Positions 1,646 to 30,431 of a stretch of 30,732 nt of DNA are shown piece by piece. The notes beneath the pieces were generated by a model. It was given only the letters and a program-made list of their open reading frames with translations. It made no database searches and was not told the origin of the DNA. The first letter of the stretch is position 1, and the number at the start of each line of letters is the position of its first letter. The translations under genes were made by a program, and so were the position numbers. Source of the DNA: a virus; the IMG/VR virus record IMGVR_UViG_3300032805_000013, positions 1 to 30,732 of that record. One strand, given 5' to 3'.

Positions 1646-2382
1646 TTCCGTTTCTCGAAATCGACGAATACACAGGCTCCATCGAGACACTGGGCGAAGC
1701 CATCGACAAGTACGAAATCTCGAACTTCGCTCGCGATAACACGCAAAAATTTCTCGAACTCGTAGACCTGCTGAATCCGCGTGACGCTGAAATCATGCTG
1801 TGCTACGCTGTGCTCCAAAAACGCCCGACAGATTTGTCTGTACTTTTTGGTAAAGCTGGGCATCGTGCCGAAGAGGATTTACACAAAGCTGCTCACAAGC
1901 TCGCAGGACTTATCGAGTTTGGAGCACTGCCGGAAATTGATCGCATTCGCGAATTGCTTGATCGACATGGGCTGTCTGACTTCGGCGGATACGATCTTGC
2001 GGCGTGTATCTGGCAGTATGCACGCTGCCGCGACTTTGCGGAAATGTCTCGACTTCTCCGACAGCGACAAACCGGGGGACTGAGACAACAAATGCTGAAA
2101 GTTTTCAAAACACTGCACGCGCTTGAGGGCCGCGAGGAGGGCTTGCTGGCAGGCTGGATTCTCTGGCTTGTCGATGGCTCGAATCCGGCAGGCAAGGGCT
2201 GGCGCAAACGAAAACGCTGCGGACGCGAGTACAGGCTGGGTCCGACCGTGTTCCGCACTTTCAAGCCCAGCGTCGAGAATCTGAATCCACGCGCAACGGG
2301 TCGCGGAGGCCAGCGACAGAAACCTGCAACCGTGCGGATTACGCGCACGATGAAATTTATTTTGCGAGGAAAGAATGCCTGA
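1642..2382 (+). CDS. protein with sigma-region-4-like helix-turn-helix and basic tail
   Basis: This is a 246-residue protein starting in an ATGA overlap. Residues about 43-95 (LNPRDAEIMLCYAVL, then a helical stretch ending KLAGLIEFG) have the spacing of a sigma70 region-4 or winged-helix DNA-binding unit, where DLSVLF and AEEDLHKAAHKL would be the two helices. The middle is helical, and residues 185-246 are strongly basic (GKGWRKRKRCGREYR), fit for binding nucleic acid. I cannot place it in a named family. It could be a phage transcription factor, which is relevant because the late genes carry a shared non-sigma70 promoter-like element. This is resemblance by eye, not a proven match. Confidence 0.6.
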   Translation: MIPFLEIDEYTGSIETLGEAIDKYEISNFARDNTQKFLELVDLLNPRDAEIMLCYAVLQKRPTDLSVLFGKAGHRAEEDLHKAAHKLAGLIEFGALPEIDRIRELLDRHGLSDFGGYDLAACIWQYARCRDFAEMSRLLRQRQTGGLRQQMLKVFKTLHALEGREEGLLAGWILWLVDGSNPAGKGWRKRKRCGREYRLGPTVFRTFKPSVENLNPRATGRGGQRQKPATVRITRTMKFILRGKNA

Positions 2383-3646
2383 GCAAGGGTCGATGATGAC
2401 CAAGCAATTAGCGCGAGAGCAGCTTGTCTATTGGCGAAACATGATGGCTCTGCGCCCAGATGAATCGGAGACGATGCAGAACGCAGCTTCGTGTATGTTC
2501 ACGCTTGGAATGCACGAGGAAGCGTTAAAACTCTACCCGGAAGCCTACGCGATGAACACAGCATCGTCGGCTATCGCAATGAACTACGGCATGGTGCTGA
2601 AAGACATGGGACGATTCGCCGAGAGCGCAACCGTCGTCCAGCACGCCTACACGCTCGACCCGGATTATTTCTACCTGAAACTCGGCTGGTCAGAATCGCT
2701 TTTGCGAAATGGCAACTGGCGCGATGCGTGGCCGCTCTACGACGAAGCGCGACCCGGAACGAAGCAGGGCGCTCGGAACATGCTGCAACTGCCGAACGAA
2801 GTCGAACTCTGGACAGGCCAGAAATTAACCGCGCCCGAAAACAAACTCATCGTCGTGGGCGAAGGCGGCACCGGAGATCGCATCACGTACTCGCGCTGGC
2901 TGCCGAAACTTGATGAACTCGGAATTGATTGGGCGTACTTCCCTGACGCGCATCCGCCGATCCCTGGATTGCAGCCGTTGTTTGATCGCGTGCCGTGGTT
3001 GCAAGGCAAGATCAAAAAATTCGGCGATGGGTACAACGTCTCGCACTGGACGACGGTATTTTCGCTCCCGGCAAACTTGAACATCATGCCGACACAGATT
3101 CCCGAATATCCAAGTCCGTTCGTGCCTAATCCCGAATTGCAGCAACGCTACGCGATGAAATCTCCGGACGGGAAACCGATCTACGGTTTGATCTGGGGCG
3201 CGAATGAACTGTTCGAGGGCGGCATGAAGTTTCGCTCGCTGCTCGAATCGCAGGCGATGCGGCTTGTGCTCTCGACTGCCGATTTGTGCCATTGGGTAAA
3301 CTGCTGGGCCGGAGACACGCACGGAAATAATTTCAAACTCGGCGCTCCCGTCTACAACCCGCCGTTCGAGAATTGGGAAGAAACTGCGGCATTACTTTCC
3401 TGTATGGACGGAATTGTCACTACAGACAACGGGGCGGGATGGCTCGCGCAGGCGCTATGGAAACCAACGTCGGTTCTGCTCTCAGGAAATTCCGACTGGA
3501 AATTTTTGCGCGGGACGGAAAAATCGTACTGGCACAAACGCTCGCGGCTTTTCCGCAACGAGGAGCAGGGATTCGAGAAAGCCGTGGACAAGTGCATCAT
3601 GGCAATTCGGAACGGAGAGGGCGTCGGTCGTGCCCTCAAAACTTAG
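2375..3646 (+). CDS. TPR-containing glycosyltransferase-like protein
   Basis: This is a 423-residue protein. Residues 10-115 hold two to three tetratricopeptide repeats (EEALKLYPEAYAMN, GMVLKDMGRFAESATVVQHAYTLDP). The C-terminal half has the layout of GT9/GT41-type GT-B glycosyltransferases: a strand-loop GEGGTGDRI (about 163-171), a late DGIVTTDNGAGWLAQALWKPTSVLL segment, and WKFLRG, matching the sugar-nucleotide binding end. Such TPR-transferases modify proteins or cell-surface glycans; in a phage the target could be virion proteins, host surface sugars or DNA bases. ATG 2375 sits behind GAGGAAAG and overlaps the previous stop; ATG 2393 and 2396 are alternatives. The last bases include late element 1, which drives the next gene. 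Confidence 0.75.
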   Translation: MPEQGSMMTKQLAREQLVYWRNMMALRPDESETMQNAASCMFTLGMHEEALKLYPEAYAMNTASSAIAMNYGMVLKDMGRFAESATVVQHAYTLDPDYFYLKLGWSESLLRNGNWRDAWPLYDEARPGTKQGARNMLQLPNEVELWTGQKLTAPENKLIVVGEGGTGDRITYSRWLPKLDELGIDWAYFPDAHPPIPGLQPLFDRVPWLQGKIKKFGDGYNVSHWTTVFSLPANLNIMPTQIPEYPSPFVPNPELQQRYAMKSPDGKPIYGLIWGANELFEGGMKFRSLLESQAMRLVLSTADLCHWVNCWAGDTHGNNFKLGAPVYNPPFENWEETAALLSCMDGIVTTDNGAGWLAQALWKPTSVLLSGNSDWKFLRGTEKSYWHKRSRLFRNEEQGFEKAVDKCIMAIRNGEGVGRALKT

Positions 3647-3649: not shown

Positions 3650-4027
3650 ATGGCTTGGACCTACGAACAAATCACGGGCAACCTGATCGACCCCACGGGC
3701 AGTTTGCAGGGCAAGGGATATTCCGGTCAGCCGCCGCATCGCAACGATCCCGAATCGCAATTCATTCCCGACGTCGGGCCGATCCCGGCTGGCAAGTGGC
3801 AGGGCGTCGAATTGATTCCGCAAAGTACGCATGGGCCGTTCGCAATCCGGCTGGAGCCTTACCCAGAAACCAACACGTTCGGGCGCTCTGGATTCCTGAT
3901 GCACGGCGATTCGATTCCGCATCCCGGTTTTGCCAGTGAGGGCTGTATTATTCAATCACGCGATGTCCGCGAATTGTTCTGGGCATCCACGGATCACGAC
4001 ATCGAAGTCGTGCGAGGCGGTCAATGA
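3650..4027 (+). CDS. DUF2778/Tlde1-like protein (L,D-transpeptidase fold), possible peptidoglycan enzyme
   Basis: This is a 125-residue protein matching the DUF2778/tlde1 pattern: GYSG (23-26), GPIPAGKW (43-50), AIRLEP, then GRSGFLMHGD with H85, and ASEGCI with S96 and C99. The His and Cys are the expected catalytic pair of an L,D-transpeptidase-type domain. Known Tlde1 proteins are type VI secretion effectors that cut or modify peptidoglycan side chains. There is no signal peptide, so release to the periplasm would need a holin or virion delivery. No canonical lysozyme or amidase is visible in this window, so this is a candidate lysis enzyme or a virion-carried wall hydrolase. It sits directly after late element 1 and has no Shine-Dalgarno site. 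Confidence 0.8.
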   Translation: MAWTYEQITGNLIDPTGSLQGKGYSGQPPHRNDPESQFIPDVGPIPAGKWQGVELIPQSTHGPFAIRLEPYPETNTFGRSGFLMHGDSIPHPGFASEGCIIQSRDVRELFWASTDHDIEVVRGGQ

Positions 4028-12569: not shown

Positions 12570-13562
12570 GTGGCATACCAACCGGCATCAGTTCTCACAT
12601 CGACCGCTGGACTCTCGCATCTTTCCTCGATCTACTATGACCGCGTGGGCGTGGAGAACCTGAAGGCCAACCTGCCCTTTGTCGCGACCACTTCGCGCCG
12701 AAAATTGCCAGATCGCAACGGGCGCACCATCCAGCTTTACAGCTATGACCTGTTGGGCGCGGCCACAACGCCCGGTTCAGAAGGCACCGTAGGCACGGGC
12801 GAAAACCCGACGACCTCAATCCGCAACGTGACGGTGCAGCAGTATTTCAACTTTGCATCGTTCTCGGACATTCTCGTCGAGACGGCCATCGACCCCATCG
12901 TCGAAAACACGGCGGCAGAAATGGGCTATCAGGCCGCATTGACTGCGAACACTCTCGCGCGTACCGAGTACGAAGCAGAAGCGACCGCAGTCTCGGCCAT
13001 CGTGACTTCCTGCACTGACAACGAATTCATGTCGGCCTCGCTCGTGCGTGCCGCTGCTATGTCGCTGCGAAACGCAGACGTTCGTCCACAGTCGGACGGC
13101 ATGTTTGTGGGCGTCATCTCCCCGGCCCCGGCGTTTGACCTGATGAATGACAACACGGCAGGCGGCGTCATTGACATCCTGAAGTATCACCGCGAAGGTG
13201 CCGAGGAACTCATGCGCGGCGTGCAAGCCTATCGCGTCATCGACATTGGCGGCGTGCGCTTCATTGAAACCACGACCGCCTCCACCTTTACCAACTTCCC
13301 GTCGTCCGGCAAGACTGGATACGGAACCTACGTCATCGGACAGGACGCCGTGTTCAGTGTTTCGCTGGGCGCGACGGAAATTCCCGAACAGCGCAATTTC
13401 CAGATCACTGTGAGGAATTGGGAGCCTTCGGTTGCTGATCCTGCCCGTGTCGTGGGTGCAAGCGCGGCCTACAATTTCAAGTATGCAGCTTTGCGCGTCC
13501 CGCAGAATCCGTCCCTCAACCCTCGATTCCGGCAGATCAAGTGTGAGGCGTCCATCTCGTAA
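12570..13562 (+). CDS. major capsid protein, N4-gp56 family
   Basis: This is the main shell protein, 330 residues, with the HK97-like fold expected for the family. The N4-gp56 pattern runs through it: VLTSTAGLSHLSSIYYDRV (6-24), a basic stretch then GRTIQLYSYDLLGAATTPGSEGTVGTGE (read in parts, 51-78), FSDILVETAIDPIVEN, FVGVISPAPAFDLMNDNTAGG (about 173-193), and IGGVRFIETT. Translation starts at GTG 12570 behind AGGAG (12556-12560). The scaffold gene lies upstream and late element 5 sits directly ahead, so capsid can be made independently of the scaffold. The stop overlaps the next ATG (TAATG). Confidence 0.93.
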   Translation: MAYQPASVLTSTAGLSHLSSIYYDRVGVENLKANLPFVATTSRRKLPDRNGRTIQLYSYDLLGAATTPGSEGTVGTGENPTTSIRNVTVQQYFNFASFSDILVETAIDPIVENTAAEMGYQAALTANTLARTEYEAEATAVSAIVTSCTDNEFMSASLVRAAAMSLRNADVRPQSDGMFVGVISPAPAFDLMNDNTAGGVIDILKYHREGAEELMRGVQAYRVIDIGGVRFIETTTASTFTNFPSSGKTGYGTYVIGQDAVFSVSLGATEIPEQRNFQITVRNWEPSVADPARVVGASAAYNFKYAALRVPQNPSLNPRFRQIKCEASIS

Positions 13563-14233
13563 TGAGCTATTCGCCTTCGATGCTGCTCAACCCGACCTCG
13601 GACTTCGGCGGCGCTCCTCAATTGGGAGCGCCGTTGCTGTATATTGTCAGGCATGCCCAAAACGACGACGACGAAGCGGGAAAAATCAGAGGACTTAAAG
13701 ATCAGCCACTCAATGCCGAGGGCGAAAAACAACTTCAGGCACTTCGGGAATTTTTTGCGGACAAGCCCCTACTTGAAGTTATTACCGACGACCTCTCGCG
13801 CACTCGCGCAACTGCTATGGCTGTGGCATCCGCAGCGGGTTGCTCGGTGGGAACAGATATTGGCCTCCGCTCATGGGATGTCGGCAAACTCGAAGGCAAG
13901 TCGATGTCCGCGCACAAGCTCGAAATCCAAGACTTCAAAACTCACCCATCGAAAGTCCCAGTAGCAGGGCAATCATGGGGAGACTTTCACCGGACCGCGA
14001 CGGATACGCTGGAGCGCTACGTCCGCAAGGGTATGGAATCCTCGGGACCGATTGCGCTGGTGACGCACGGCTCGGTCATCCAAGTTGCGTTCCAGGCCTA
14101 CAGCGATTGGCCGGAAAATGCCGACTACGATCACACACCGCTGGATCAGGCCGGAGTCGCCGCGCTGTACCTGACGCGAAGTGGGATGGAACTCAAAGGA
14201 CTGAAGGGCGCCAAGGAATCTCCCGATGAATGA
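13562..14233 (+). CDS. histidine phosphatase superfamily protein
   Basis: This is a phosphoglycerate-mutase-like histidine phosphatase of 223 residues from ATG 13562. The nucleophile motif is LYIVRHAQ with R30 and H31; the second catalytic His is in LVTHGS (about 169). TDDLSRTRATA near 76-86 supplies the conserved Arg. These enzymes remove phosphate from small molecules or proteins through a phospho-His. The first 24 residues precede the fold and are encoded by a strong hairpin, so TTG 13634 could be the true start. A metabolic enzyme between capsid and tail genes is unusual and looks like acquired cargo. Confidence 0.85.
   Translation: MSYSPSMLLNPTSDFGGAPQLGAPLLYIVRHAQNDDDEAGKIRGLKDQPLNAEGEKQLQALREFFADKPLLEVITDDLSRTRATAMAVASAAGCSVGTDIGLRSWDVGKLEGKSMSAHKLEIQDFKTHPSKVPVAGQSWGDFHRTATDTLERYVRKGMESSGPIALVTHGSVIQVAFQAYSDWPENADYDHTPLDQAGVAALYLTRSGMELKGLKGAKESPDE
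13609..13633 (+). other. strong GC hairpin just after the capsid gene
   Basis: A perfect 9-bp stem, CGGCGCTCC (13609-13617) with GGAGCGCCG (13625-13633), closes a 7-base loop. No T run follows, so it is not a normal terminator. It lies 47 bases past the capsid stop and immediately before TTG 13634. It may protect the capsid mRNA end or hold down translation of the phosphatase. Confidence 0.55.
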
Positions 14234-15040: not shown

Positions 15041-15496
15041 ATGGCCGTCATCGGAACTCTCGTAACCTCAGCCCCGTCCAGTGTTGGCTGGTGGAGTGAA
15101 TGCACTCTCGCCTCTGCTCAGGCCGTCACCGGGACTTCGACGACGACCGGAACCATCGTGTACTCGAATACCTCGAACCGTGTGTTCCAGCCTTCGTTGC
15201 CCCTCGCGTGCATCGTGCTCTCACAGACGACCGCGACGTCGGCGGCAAGCTCTGCCTACTCGACGCTCATCAACGGGACCAATAACATTGGCGCTGTCGC
15301 GGCCAGCGGCGGCACGGGCGGAATCGGAATCAACTCGGTCATTCTCGGCGTCACCGCGCAATCGACCAACACCGCGACATCTCTGGTGAGTTACACGGAA
15401 ACCGGAACGCTTACTCTGTCTTTCGTGAACGCGGGAGCGACAGCAACCTTGACGGCTGGGACGCGACTCCTGTTCCTTCAGTCCAACGGCAACTAA
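15041..15496 (+). CDS. small beta-rich virion protein (decoration-type)
   Basis: This gene encodes 151 residues rich in Thr, Ser, Ala and Gly, with alternating hydrophobic positions and almost no charge, ending GTRLLFLQSNGN. The composition is typical of capsid decoration or fibre-like proteins. It has its own late element and a strong ribosome binding site, which predicts high expression, in line with a structural protein. No specific family is recognised. Confidence 0.65.
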   Translation: MAVIGTLVTSAPSSVGWWSECTLASAQAVTGTSTTTGTIVYSNTSNRVFQPSLPLACIVLSQTTATSAASSAYSTLINGTNNIGAVAASGGTGGIGINSVILGVTAQSTNTATSLVSYTETGTLTLSFVNAGATATLTAGTRLLFLQSNGN

Positions 15497-15505
15497 GGGG
15501 GATTT

Positions 15506-15889
15506 ATGGCTTGGGCGGCATTCCAAAAACCGAACTGGACTCGCGTTGCTGGTCCGCAGAAGATGGTGCAGTATTTCCCGGCATCGTCCAATGGGACGGC
15601 AACCGGGAACCTGACCTTCACTGCGGGACAGGTAAAGACGATCACCCTGACGGCTGCCTTCAACTTCAAGGGTAACGGCATGGTGGAAGTCTGGGCACCG
15701 GAAGGCGCTGGGTCCGGCTATGCGACGGCGGCTGCGGCTGGCGTGGCAATCGAAAACTCATGGCTGCAAGGTCCGGGGTCCGGCTCTTACGCGGCTGGCA
15801 ATCATCCGCTGATCCTCTTGCAGATTTCGTCCGGCGCGGCGTACACTACCGCTGCAACTGGATTCGATCTGATCGCAATGGAGAGTTAA
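15506..15889 (+). CDS. small beta-rich virion protein
   Basis: This gene encodes 127 residues starting nine bases after the previous stop, behind GGGGGA. It has low charge and is Gly/Ala/Thr-rich with strands such as QVKTITLTAAFNF, and ends in GFDLIAMES. The composition is close to that of the preceding protein, and the pair may be paralogues or partners in the capsid shell. Function is inferred from context. Confidence 0.6.
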   Translation: MAWAAFQKPNWTRVAGPQKMVQYFPASSNGTATGNLTFTAGQVKTITLTAAFNFKGNGMVEVWAPEGAGSGYATAAAAGVAIENSWLQGPGSGSYAAGNHPLILLQISSGAAYTTAATGFDLIAMES

Positions 15890-15891
15890 TC

Positions 15892-16284
15892 TTGGCAGAA
15901 AATCTCAGCCTCTCGGCTACGCAGCTTGAATCAATCCTTCGCACGCTCGTAGCCGAGATTCGCAAACCGCCCGTCGATCCCATCAAGGAAGCCCAAAAGA
16001 CTCGTCAAGAGAAAATGAAAAACGAAGGCAACAAGGAGCGTTGGGCGCGAATGCTCGACAAACTCACACGTTGCCTGCATTCCCGCGAAGATGGAACCTG
16101 TGTCATCGCGTGGGCCGTGCAATCGGATGGAGTCGAACGCGGATATTGTCCGCACTGCGATTGCGCCATCGCCCCAGAACTCGCGCAACTGTTTCCAGAG
16201 CGCAAAGAGGAAATGACGAAGCTCTACCAGGAGCAGCGCAAGCGGCCTCGCGGACGAAAAGAGAATATCCGGTACGTCGCCTAA
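15892..16284 (+). CDS. hypothetical protein with zinc-binding cysteine motif
   Basis: This gene encodes 130 residues from TTG 15892, behind GGAGAG. The N-terminal half is helical and basic (DPIKEAQKTRQEKMKNEGNK in parts). The second half holds C and H residues (TRCLHSREDGTCVIAW) and GYCPHCD, making a likely one-zinc site. Gene products of this type recur in phage structural regions, role unknown. The overlap-like spacing and shared leader suggest co-expression with the two genes upstream. Confidence 0.65.
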   Translation: MAENLSLSATQLESILRTLVAEIRKPPVDPIKEAQKTRQEKMKNEGNKERWARMLDKLTRCLHSREDGTCVIAWAVQSDGVERGYCPHCDCAIAPELAQLFPERKEEMTKLYQEQRKRPRGRKENIRYVA

Positions 16285-21185: not shown

Positions 21186-21776
21186 ATGGAAGTAGCCGAA
21201 AAGACTCTCGCCGAATTTCTCGACTCCTACAATTTCGCATGGCGACGAAATGCCTTTATGCTGATCGCTCAGGAATTGTGCGCCCTTGAGCGCCCTGTGA
21301 TGATCTGCGAAACGGGATGTATGCGTGCGCCCAATCAACCGGATCACGAATTTGAAGATGGACAATCCACACTCGTCTGGGATTATCTTGCGACCATGAC
21401 GGGCGGCAAGGCTATCAGCATCGACATGAATCCTGAAAACTGCGCCTATGCCCGTGAGCGCGTCGGACCAAACACGACGATCTACGAGGCGAATTCTATC
21501 CAATTTCTGAGCAACGCAGAGTTCGAGCACAAAATTGATCTGCTGTACCTGGATTCGATGGATTACACGAAACAGACTGCGTTTCATTCGGCGCTCAATC
21601 ATGCGGGAGAACTCGCAGCCGCGTGGGAACATCTGGAATCGGGCGCAATCGTGGCGGTCGATGATTGTATCGGGCCGTACAATGGAAAACACGCGCTCGT
21701 GAAATGTTTCTTTGAAATCCTCGGCGGCGTGTTGCCTTCGGGGATCAGTCACATCAGTTGGTGGAAGAAACCATGA
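21186..21776 (+). CDS. class I SAM-dependent methyltransferase
   Basis: This is a 196-residue methyltransferase of the Rossmann type (Methyltransf_24-like). Motif I is CETGCM (41-46), the acidic residue after strand 2 is SIDMNP with D80, motif IV-like segment is IDLLYLDSMDY (117-127) and a later AVDDCIG carries D159/D160. These bind S-adenosylmethionine and probably metal. Proteins of this set methylate sugars or small molecules in glycan pathways rather than DNA; no DPPY-type motif is present. It could work with the glycosyltransferase at 2.4 kb. It sits in a cargo cassette between adaptor and nozzle genes. Confidence 0.8.
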   Translation: MEVAEKTLAEFLDSYNFAWRRNAFMLIAQELCALERPVMICETGCMRAPNQPDHEFEDGQSTLVWDYLATMTGGKAISIDMNPENCAYARERVGPNTTIYEANSIQFLSNAEFEHKIDLLYLDSMDYTKQTAFHSALNHAGELAAAWEHLESGAIVAVDDCIGPYNGKHALVKCFFEILGGVLPSGISHISWWKKP

Positions 21777-28790: not shown

Positions 28791-28823
28791 ATGCGGACGG
28801 GATCGAAGGGACAGGCGGCGTGA
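28791..28823 (+). CDS. possible leader peptide, coupled to the next gene
   Basis: ATG 28791 is at the standard 21-base offset of the late element. It opens ten codons, MRTGSKGQAA, then TGA (28821-28823), which overlaps the GTG start of the next gene as GTGA. This arrangement suggests that ribosomes start at the element-linked ATG and re-initiate on the membrane-protein gene. Confidence 0.4.
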   Translation: MRTGSKGQAA

Positions 28824-29017
28824 ATGAATGGATCAGGCTTGGCATCACTATCGTATCTGGCGTCGTGGTTTCTCTTGTTGGCTTCGTTGTTCGTGATTTA
28901 CGAGATCGTGTGCTACGTCTTGAAACATCCCAGACAGAAACGGGCGAATTGGTTGCCGAACTTAAGGGCCGCTGCGATGCGAATTTTTCAGGGTCACACG
29001 GACGATTCCACGACTAG
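28820..29017 (+). CDS. small membrane protein with coiled coil (lysis-type)
   Basis: This gene encodes 65 residues from GTG 28820. One transmembrane helix (ITIVSGVVVSLVGFVV, about 9-24) is followed by DLRDRVLRLETSQTETGELVAELKG, a heptad-like coiled coil. The design, membrane helix then coiled coil, is common in small phage membrane proteins of the XhlA/holin-associated and inner-membrane spanin kinds. Reading the same bases in the frame from 28824 gives a Leu/Trp-rich sequence that looks like a shadow. Expected to be expressed late through element 10. Confidence 0.7.
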   Translation: MNEWIRLGITIVSGVVVSLVGFVVRDLRDRVLRLETSQTETGELVAELKGRCDANFSGSHGRFHD

Positions 29018-29024
29018 GCGCGGA

Positions 29025-29381
29025 ATGGGACGGATTCTCGGCGTCGTTTTCTGCGGCGTTCTGGGCGCAGCGGCTTTCGTCGGTTACACCATGCGTTCCT
29101 CGGAAGTGCAAGCCAACGTCATTGACACTTACTACAATGCCCTAGTCGTGAGCAATCCAGATGGAGCCTATCGCTATTGGATAAAGCCGCATAGCGCGTC
29201 GGGCGAAGCCTTGCCGCTCACATACCTGAACTTTTGCCACGATTTCGAGCCGGAATTTTCGCCTGGACAAACGCTTCTGATTTTAAAAGTCGAGCACAAA
29301 TGGGGCTGTGTGAGCGTAGCTAACACTCACCCCGGATACAGGATAAAACGCGATGACCGACCCAACGAAACAGCCAACTGA
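29025..29381 (+). CDS. membrane-anchored hypothetical protein
   Basis: This gene encodes 118 residues from ATG 29025. The start is chosen because the upstream part of the frame (28824-29017) overlaps the previous gene out of frame, and a GGCGCGGA lies just ahead. An N-terminal anchor (ILGVVFCGVLGAAAFVGYTM, about 4-23) is followed by a soluble domain facing the periplasm, with two cysteines (NFCHDF, WGCVSV). No family is recognised. It may be a lysis or superinfection protein by position. Confidence 0.65.
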   Translation: MGRILGVVFCGVLGAAAFVGYTMRSSEVQANVIDTYYNALVVSNPDGAYRYWIKPHSASGEALPLTYLNFCHDFEPEFSPGQTLLILKVEHKWGCVSVANTHPGYRIKRDDRPNETAN

Positions 29382-29439
29382 CCCGAAACCGGACGACGAC
29401 AACCCGAACAAACCGCCCGATCCCCCAGATAAGGGATAA
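29353..29439 (+). CDS. possible 28-residue Pro/Asp-rich peptide
   Basis: ATG 29353 opens 28 codons rich in Pro, Asp, Lys and Asn (KPDDDNPNKPPDPPDKG), ending in TAA at 29437-29439, only ten bases before the -10 box of the next gene. The repeated P-D/P-N pattern is not typical of chance translation, and short Pro-rich tails are known in phage envelope proteins. The ribosome binding site is weak, so it is a tentative gene. Confidence 0.4.
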   Translation: MTDPTKQPTDPKPDDDNPNKPPDPPDKG

Positions 29440-29454
29440 GCTGTATGGTATAGT
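29426..29454 (+). promoter_or_regulatory. extended -10 promoter before the NusG-like gene
   Basis: TGGTATAGT (29446-29454) is an extended -10 box: TG, one base, then TATAGT, five of six to consensus. The -35 region 17 bases upstream (CAGATA, 29426-29431) is poor, which extended -10 promoters tolerate. The start would be about 29461, four bases before ATG 29465, giving an almost leaderless message; no Shine-Dalgarno site is present. Confidence 0.6.
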
Positions 29455-29464
29455 GGGCAGAAAA

Positions 29465-30004
29465 ATGCTGCTCACTAAAGGCAAGGTTGCTTCGTCTGAG
29501 CCGTGGAAGATTCTGGAAGTCGCACTCGGCCAATCACCCGATGTGCTCGCGCTTCGTCTTGCCAAAGAACTGAAACGCATCCACGAACCGGGAATCGAAG
29601 CTCTTGTGCCCATGAAGCGCAACGCGGACGGCGACCCGGAATGGATTGTCGAGCATGTCTACGTCCGAGGCGCAAATGGTTCCCTTGGACGGCTGGCGCG
29701 AACGCCGGGAATTGACTTCATCCGACCGGAAGCTGCCGATTCGAACTGGATTGCAGAACTCCTCAAGTACGAGCACTCCGTAGAGACAATGATCGACCCT
29801 GGCATGTTTGTGCGCGTCCTGACAGGCCCGTGCGCCCGGATGTGCGGACATGTAAAGGCAAATGCCGATGGAACCGTGACGGTCGCAATCCCCATGCGGA
29901 CCAAGCTGGTTACCTGCTATACCTACCCTGAAAATGTGCAACGAGTGAACGCCCCGCCAGAACTACAAACATTTTTCTTTCAATCGACGCTATTTTCCTC
30001 TTGA
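29465..30004 (+). CDS. NusG/RfaH-like transcription factor
   Basis: This is a 179-residue protein built like NusG. Residues about 14-90 resemble an NGN domain: WKILEVALGQ, a helix VLALRLAKELKRI, GIEALVPMKR, a strand WIVEHVYVRG in the place of the usual GYVFV segment, then LARTPGIDFI. Residues 112-140 are KOW-like: MFVRVLTGPCARMCGHV then DGTVTVAIPM. NusG proteins ride on RNA polymerase and suppress pausing; RfaH-type paralogues act on selected operons. In a phage it could serve antitermination. GTG 29453 is an alternative start but would lie ahead of the predicted transcription start. TGA overlaps the next -35 box. Confidence 0.7.
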   Translation: MLLTKGKVASSEPWKILEVALGQSPDVLALRLAKELKRIHEPGIEALVPMKRNADGDPEWIVEHVYVRGANGSLGRLARTPGIDFIRPEAADSNWIAELLKYEHSVETMIDPGMFVRVLTGPCARMCGHVKANADGTVTVAIPMRTKLVTCYTYPENVQRVNAPPELQTFFFQSTLFSS

Positions 30005-30030
30005 CACAATGTGGTACATTGCGGTAATTT
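30001..30030 (+). promoter_or_regulatory. sigma70 promoter with palindromic operator
   Basis: A perfect -35 box TTGACA (30001-30006) and TAATTT (30025-30030) are 18 bases apart. The spacer is filled by CAATGTGGTACATTG (30007-30021), a perfect 6-bp inverted repeat with a 3-base centre. A palindrome placed between the boxes is the classic operator position for a repressor, probably one of the two DNA-binding proteins encoded just downstream. Confidence 0.7.
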
Positions 30031-30039
30031 TGTTCCCGC

Positions 30040-30195
30040 ATGACAAAGCCATCGGAAACTATAAGGCTCAGGATTGACGCCGATCTGCTGAAGCGTATTG
30101 GCAAACGAGCCAAAGCGGAGCAGCGCACAGCGTCAAGCCTGATTCGGTACGCAGTCGTGAAATATCTGGAGGAAGCGTGCGAATCGGACAAGTAA
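30040..30195 (+). CDS. ribbon-helix-helix (CopG/Arc-type) regulator
   Basis: This is a 51-residue protein with the full RHH fold: strand ETIRLRID (6-13), helix ADLLKRIGKRAKAEQ (14-28), turn, and helix SSLIRYAVVKYLEEA (32-46). Such proteins dimerise, and the paired strand binds the major groove of short palindromes. The operator 10 bases upstream (30007-30021) is therefore a likely target and points to self-repression. The protein overlaps the next gene by 19 bases. Confidence 0.8.
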   Translation: MTKPSETIRLRIDADLLKRIGKRAKAEQRTASSLIRYAVVKYLEEACESDK

Positions 30196-30431
30196 TCAAG
30201 AAATGGCGGCTCGTCTCGAACATGGAGTGCAAGGAAGCGGCTGCGATGATCGGGCTTACCGAGTCCACGTTGCGGCGAATCGAGAAGGGTGTCGTGCCGG
30301 ACGGAAAAACACTTATCCAGTTGTGGATGTGGCTGATGGGAGATGGCGATGACGATATTTTACGACGAGAAGTTTCTGAAGTTACTGAAACAGAACATGA
30401 ACATGTCGCCGCACACCGTTCTTCTGATTAA
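30177..30431 (+). CDS. XRE/Cro-type helix-turn-helix regulator
   Basis: This gene encodes 84 residues from GTG 30177, behind GGAGGAAGC. Residues 2-55 have the Cro/C1 helix-turn-helix pattern: IGQVIKKWRL, then KEAAAMIGLTESTLRRIEKG (about 19-38) with the recognition helix at ESTLRRIEKG. The acidic C-terminus follows. Together with the RHH protein it makes a two-protein early switch under one promoter, as in Cro-like control circuits. The 3' end overlaps the next gene by 83 bases. Confidence 0.8.
   Translation: MRIGQVIKKWRLVSNMECKEAAAMIGLTESTLRRIEKGVVPDGKTLIQLWMWLMGDGDDDILRREVSEVTETEHEHVAAHRSSD

Follow-up and report, generated by a model that had tools for sequence, protein, structure and literature searches.

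Between the structural genes of this virus and its early regulators lies a gene that the initial annotation read as coding for a NusG-like protein with its own promoter. This raises the questions of whether the gene is genuine, whether its product belongs to the NusG family and what such a factor could do for a phage. We addressed them computationally on the whole stretch of DNA (hereafter the window), a 30.7-kb IMG/VR virus record that carries genes for terminase, portal and major head protein; the NusG-like gene is located 3′ of the structural genes and immediately 5′ of a regulator operon. The head protein has its best isolate relative in Tunturi_3 (32%, full length), which infects the acidobacterium Tunturiibacter, so the host is likely a member of the Acidobacteriota, a group for which we know of no studies of Rho or NusG.

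Several other genes of the record stood out in passing. A 423-aa TPR-repeat protein with a weak match to glycosyltransferase family 9 (2375-3646; 71-74% identical in two related phages) occupies an unusual place between the replication and structural genes, and a Tlde1-domain protein (3650-4027; PF10908, E 3.5e-11), far from the NusG-like gene, is likely a cell-wall-cutting lysis enzyme. A histidine phosphatase (13562-14233; PF00300, E 5.6e-31) lies directly 3′ of the major head protein in all three phages. A methyltransferase of the structural module (21186-21776; PF13578) has a relative in the phage G001 elsewhere and on the opposite strand (15399-16058 minus) and is possibly a mobile cassette.

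Gene, promoter and neighbourhood

Two syntenic phages, G001 and G003, carry orthologues of the protein (65% and 58% amino-acid identity, respectively), in both cases 3′ of the same structural module and 5′ of the regulator promoter. The features of this region are as follows.

29446-29454, plus strand: extended -10 element TGGTATAGT, its position kept in G001 and G003
29465-30004, plus strand: NGN-KOW (NusG-like) protein of 179 aa, supported by orthologues, dN/dS, models and profile links
30001-30006, plus strand: TTGACA, a -35-like box that overlaps the TGA and may belong to an early promoter of the regulator operon; seen in three phages
30007-30021, no strand assigned: inverted repeat CAATGT-GGT-ACATTG (perfect palindrome) in the regulator promoter, candidate operator
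30040-30195, plus strand: ribbon-helix-helix (Arc/CopG-like) regulator, 51 aa (phrog_582 Arc-like repressor, E 3.1e-5; PF01402, above cut-off)
30177-30431, plus strand: HTH_3 regulator, 84 aa (PF01381, E 9.2e-6, above cut-off)

The reading frame opens with an ATG at 29465 and closes with a TGA at 30002-30004, and its translation contains exactly the residues quoted in the initial annotation (MFVRVLTGPCARMCGHV...DGTVTV). A start at the in-frame GTG 29453 would lengthen the protein by four residues, but both orthologues begin at the residue equivalent to the ATG and not at the GTG equivalent. Across the window, G001 and G003, dN was 0.29-0.37 with dS near saturation, and 105 of the 192 nucleotide differences between the window and G001 fell at third codon positions. 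Given syntenic orthologues, dN far below dS and this excess of third-position changes, the frame, judged from sequence comparison, is a genuine gene under purifying selection and not a chance frame.

By count, the extended -10 element is ordinary: the window holds four near-matches to TGGTATAGT-type sites versus 6.6 expected from shuffles, so that by sequence alone the element would be weak evidence, and no sigma-70 -35 box was found upstream of the gene. The claim that the gene has its own promoter is nevertheless supported by position, as TGnTAnnnT precedes the ATG by 10 nt in the window, 19 nt in G001 and 13 nt in G003. Such a site 4-22 nt upstream occurs for just 0.44-0.62% of positions per genome, and among the other conserved genes tested the motif precedes only one. 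The product over three phages is ~1e-7; because the motif was picked after the window copy had been seen, ~2e-5, from the two orthologues, is the fairer figure. Transcription is predicted to begin 3-12 nt ahead of the ATG, in the window 3-4 nt, and no Shine-Dalgarno sequence is present, which suggests a near-leaderless transcript from a promoter that would set the gene apart from the early operon.

The proposed setting, at a switch from lysis-type genes to early regulators, was confirmed on the 3′ side, where the ribbon-helix-helix and HTH_3 genes are found, but found no support on the 5′ side, where the open reading frames match nothing. Two small frames there (28820-29017 and 29022-29381) encode a membrane-like N-terminus, have no database match and are not conserved in the related phages; they are followed by a 28-aa proline-rich frame (29354-29440). 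Downstream, each of the three phages has TTGACA at the stop codon or no more than 4 nt from it, and in G003 a TATACA box follows after 17 nt. The palindrome next to the window's TTGACA may be bound by the ribbon-helix-helix protein, which would make this an autoregulated early promoter; at the same place G003 has ACGTTGTA...TACAACGT. Judged from G001, whose gene matches phrog_155 at 1.2e-7, the window ends inside an Erf-like annealing gene.

Fold and kinship with NusG

We predicted the structure of the protein with AlphaFold2 from two sequences (model 1) and from three (model 2). Confidence was modest (mean pLDDT 59.8 and 58.9, both below 60), and whole-chain TM-scores of ~0.3 for both models, as expected if the relative placement of two domains is unreliable, mean that support for the fold is per domain. 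In model 1, the elements run beta-alpha-beta-beta-beta-alpha-beta-alpha and end in a five-strand barrel. The two domains could be delimited as follows.

29498-29779, plus strand: NGN-like domain, residues ~12-105 (VIA-align with model 2; W14, P49)
29786-29953, plus strand: KOW-like beta-barrel domain, residues ~108-163 (VIA-align with model 1; KOW glycine G128)

Both models, overlaid on known structures, retrieved NusG, RfaH and Spt5 first in the PDB. With Foldseek, all 16 matches of model 1 at E <= 1e-3 were NusG, RfaH or Spt5 (153-178 columns), as were 50 of 50 VIA-align rows for model 2, many of them over residues ~9-105 alone and others over both domains. Retrieval was strongest for the KOW barrel in model 1 (Z 7.6, 57 residues, 2.0 A on the E. 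coli NusG CTD, 2jvv; Z 8.1 on 3c4s) and for the NGN domain in model 2 (best Z 8.2, 90 residues, 2.5 A on B. subtilis NusG, 8ehq_G). By the tool's own guidance, Z-scores of 7-8 are not decisive alone, and the fold call draws its weight from the uniform match list together with the sequence evidence. In an alignment including E. coli NusG and RfaH, W14 is invariant and P49 nearly so, and the conserved KOW glycine is G128. A search of predicted viral proteins returned as its third match one named 'NusG Transcription antiterminator'. RfaH has a helical, autoinhibited KOW domain that refolds; the KOW domain here is drawn as beta in both models, which, as AlphaFold models, do not report alternative states.

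On its own, the sequence retrieved nothing useful from Pfam, NCBIfam, PHROG or PDB sequence searches, and it falls below the cut-offs of PF02357 and of the NCBIfam NusG models. The first lead was a weak tblastn match to gp25 of the jumbo phage Tunturi_5 (XOB77468.1), annotated 'transcription antiterminator', which a two-sequence profile then recovered from the 309-kb Tunturi_5 genome at E 1.9e-7. To find further members, we scanned IMG/VR with a degenerate DNA pattern for FVR(V/I)xxGxxxxxCGxV, obtaining 46 stretches, of which 41 were of Tunturi_5 type, two were the orthologues and three were unrelated. Ten of the contigs with Tunturi_5-type members exceed 200 kb, the largest reaching 463 kb. 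Scans of genome contigs gave no relative of the window protein, a search via the neighbouring ERF gene gave only an already-known one, and no family member was seen in Tunturi_2, Tunturi_3, Tunturi_4 or remoter terminase relatives, a negative of little weight because several of these records are fragments.

We aligned 27 non-redundant Tunturi_5-type phage proteins (A7) and compared profiles with hhalign. The window family matched A7 over its full length (residues 1-174; P 99.2, E 3.6e-19), and A7 matched the NusG/RfaH alignment through both domains in order (P 96.6, E 5.5e-10). Directly against NusG, the window family gave a weak collinear alignment of residues 12-152 (E 0.0027, probability only 11%). 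Some records in the NusG alignment (A9) are labelled phage and are probably bacterial contamination, which is harmless for their use as NusG. Raw scores for window-A7, A7-NusG and window-NusG were 121.5, 68.2 and 25.4; the 150 column-shuffled profiles per pair reached at most 26.5, 20.7 and 21.4. Searched against PDB chains, the A7 profile placed A. aeolicus NusG on top (E 0.0036), then Spt5 and NusG, with uL24 also scoring. Among the 27 A7 members, 20 match phrog_6386 'transcription antiterminator' (best 9e-6), which does not match the window protein itself, and eight match Pfam KOW5_SPT5 (best 4.6e-5). At the level of profiles, these comparisons confirm homology to NusG over both domains by way of the A7 family, and the identity of the protein as a two-domain NGN-KOW (NusG/Spt5-type) protein is well supported. 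The NGN-like N-terminus and KOW-like end first read from the letters were in this way borne out, and the outcome that would have refuted them, a predicted structure lacking an NGN or KOW fold, did not arise.

In a tree, 30 family members separated from 11 NusG/RfaH rows with 100/97 support. The window trio forms a long branch on the phage-family side, and such long branches make finer placing unsure; RfaH did not group with the window family, its own branch being very long and its placing unsure. The full-length likeness of the window protein to Tunturi_5 gp25, the IMG/VR relatives and PHROG 6386 extends to an N-terminal ML-x-x-G ... W-x-x-x-E and the KOW signature FVR-(V/I)-x-x-G-x5-C-G-x-V. 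Many Tunturi_5-type proteins, often from large phages, have long C-terminal extensions (open frames of ~335-812 aa); the window protein is the minimal form. In L033, L030, L061 and other large phages, the extensions comprise 150-300 or more residues, and no known domain was found in that of L033. Two large phages (L033:6937-7683; L039:4230-5138 minus) have the NGN-KOW family gene followed directly by an Rz-like spanin candidate (PHROG E 0.01 and 2.4e-4). Elsewhere, a short family member (L073:8114-8647 minus) adjoins a protein that weakly matches sigma-70 region 4 (E 0.013) and is possibly a phage sigma-like partner.

Phage NusG paralogues had been called uncommon. This is true of copies recognisable by tblastn with E. 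coli NusG, which matched 46 of 50,697 phage records. These include phages of Microcystis (MaAM05), Synechococcus, Rhizobium and Sinorhizobium as well as metagenomic megaphages, although several matches resemble bacterial contamination. The diverged NGN-KOW family, in contrast, is recurrent in IMG/VR, and its phages are often large. Rhizobium phage PPF1 and Sinorhizobium phage phi3LM21 likewise carry a NusG-type gene, directly 3′ of an HTH gene, but their proteins keep an FGR/YGR loop and are found by plain tblastn with E. coli NusG, neither of which applies to the window protein.

The loop that contacts Rho and S10 in NusG

Housekeeping NusG has an NGN followed by a KOW domain, collinear with the window protein, in which the equivalents of W9 and P45 are kept. 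The window protein differs in being phage-borne, in lying under Pfam and NCBIfam detection and in one loop of the KOW domain.

29894-29905, plus strand: M144-R145-T146-K147 in place of NusG I164-F165-G166-R167, the Rho/S10 contact loop (alignment of 30 family and 11 NusG/RfaH sequences)

The I-F-G-R loop is replaced in all 30 family members, typically by [LM]-[KR]-T-[KR], a change that the window protein shares with the Tunturi_5 gp25 type. Position 165 is basic in 25 of the 30 and aromatic in none; in the ten NusG sequences compared it is always F or Y, with R at 167 throughout, and in RfaH it is I. In NusG, I164, F165 and G166 are key Rho contacts (PMC7593976). RfaH has L-I-N at those positions and does not bind Rho (PMC7593976; PMC7819879), and losing Rho contact has been proposed as the first step in the evolution of RfaH from NusG (PMC7593976). 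The Rho-contact residues are thus absent from RfaH as they are from the window protein, but RfaH differs from the family at the mostly basic position 165. Of the specialised paralogues RfaH, LoaP, TaA and UpxY, our comparison covers RfaH alone.

The Rho-contacting region of NusG also binds S10 (PMC7819879), and contact with the ribosome may therefore be lost too. If F165 is lost, the parallel with RfaH may not extend to ribosome recruitment. RfaH is also distinguished by its ops element: we found no copy of GGCGGTAGnnTG on either strand of the window, G001 or G003, where a different element is possible, and a comparison of intergenic regions among the three phages for common 10-mers gave nothing convincing as a shared cis-acting site. 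With no recruitment element found, the protein, once made, may act globally.

Possible role and rival readings

We consider it probable, with real room for doubt, that the protein is an elongation factor that takes the seat of NusG on the host RNA polymerase without recruiting Rho, giving RfaH-like antitermination. From the family to which it belongs, we infer its timing and its antitermination activity, as well as binding to polymerase, the exclusion of NusG and the loss of contact with Rho and S10. A host sigma factor would drive transcription from the extended -10, near-leaderless promoter; the NGN domain would then bind the beta′ clamp helices, the site of host NusG, with less pausing and NusG displaced. 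As the KOW loop lacks the residues with which NusG contacts Rho, polymerase carrying the protein would be a poor Rho target, and long phage transcripts would be read through to completion. Lambda N serves the same end, phage antitermination against Rho (PMC7819879), but is a disordered protein working with host NusG, whereas the window protein is itself of NusG type.

The same fold and changed loop would also suit a host-takeover competitor that occupies RNA polymerase, displaces NusG and disturbs transcription in the host or its coupling to translation, without particularly favouring phage genes. A promoter of its own outside the regulator operon fits this, as does the failure to find a cis-acting recruitment site, since action could then be global; one syntenic place beside the regulator operon in three phages, however, better suits a regulator of phage transcription, and we think the takeover reading unlikely. 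We give slightly less credence to a stand-in for housekeeping NusG, acting as a general processivity or pausing factor with the normal KOW partners (S10 and Rho) where host NusG is limiting or altered in infection. The collinear NGN-KOW architecture agrees with such a role and true NusG copies do occur in phages, for example in Microcystis phage MaAM05, but a loop replaced throughout the family while NusG retains F/Y 165 and R 167 argues against it.

We weighed two further explanations. Ribosomal-protein KOW barrels also score in fold searches, uL24 appeared in the profile search and the loop is basic, all of which would fit a KOW-type protein, uL24-like or otherwise, that binds RNA or the ribosome and has an N-terminal half with no more than a resemblance to NGN. 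Such a protein is improbable, as the NGN half alone retrieved only NusG, RfaH and Spt5 (VIA-align, model 2) and the profile alignment to NusG spans both domains in order. That the frame is a chance or unrelated one, its likeness an artefact of low-confidence models, could be argued from pLDDT below 60 and from the absence of any database match for the window protein alone. We find this barely credible, since a chance frame is already refuted by orthologues with dN much below dS, and two models from different alignments agree with an independent sequence-profile route.

Phages must guard long transcripts from Rho, and the known solutions, such as lambda N, act on or around host NusG. In the open-access literature (subscription papers and preprints being outside our scope), we found no paper that addresses what a phage-encoded NusG does. 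Phage-borne NusG as such is already known, and PHROG 6386 labels related proteins antiterminators; what appears to be new, and undescribed in the literature searched, is a diverged phage branch with a changed loop in small and giant phages alike. Tentatively, and without leaning towards it, we suggest that these proteins could form a large phage-only branch of NusG/Spt5, on contigs from 30 kb to more than 450 kb, that has traded the Rho/S10 loop throughout for a mostly basic [LM]-[KR]-T-[KR]. If so, dedicated elongation factors would replace host NusG and make Rho ineffective against phage transcription, and their KOW domain may have a new partner, for instance nascent RNA or a protein of the phage. 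Because the family lies below Pfam and NCBIfam cut-offs and PHROGs capture only part of it, a testable role could be assigned to many 'hypothetical proteins' of phages. A NusG-type protein that is widespread in phages and lacks the Rho-contact residues would be a direct and simple solution to the problem of Rho, parallel to the origin of bacterial RfaH from NusG.
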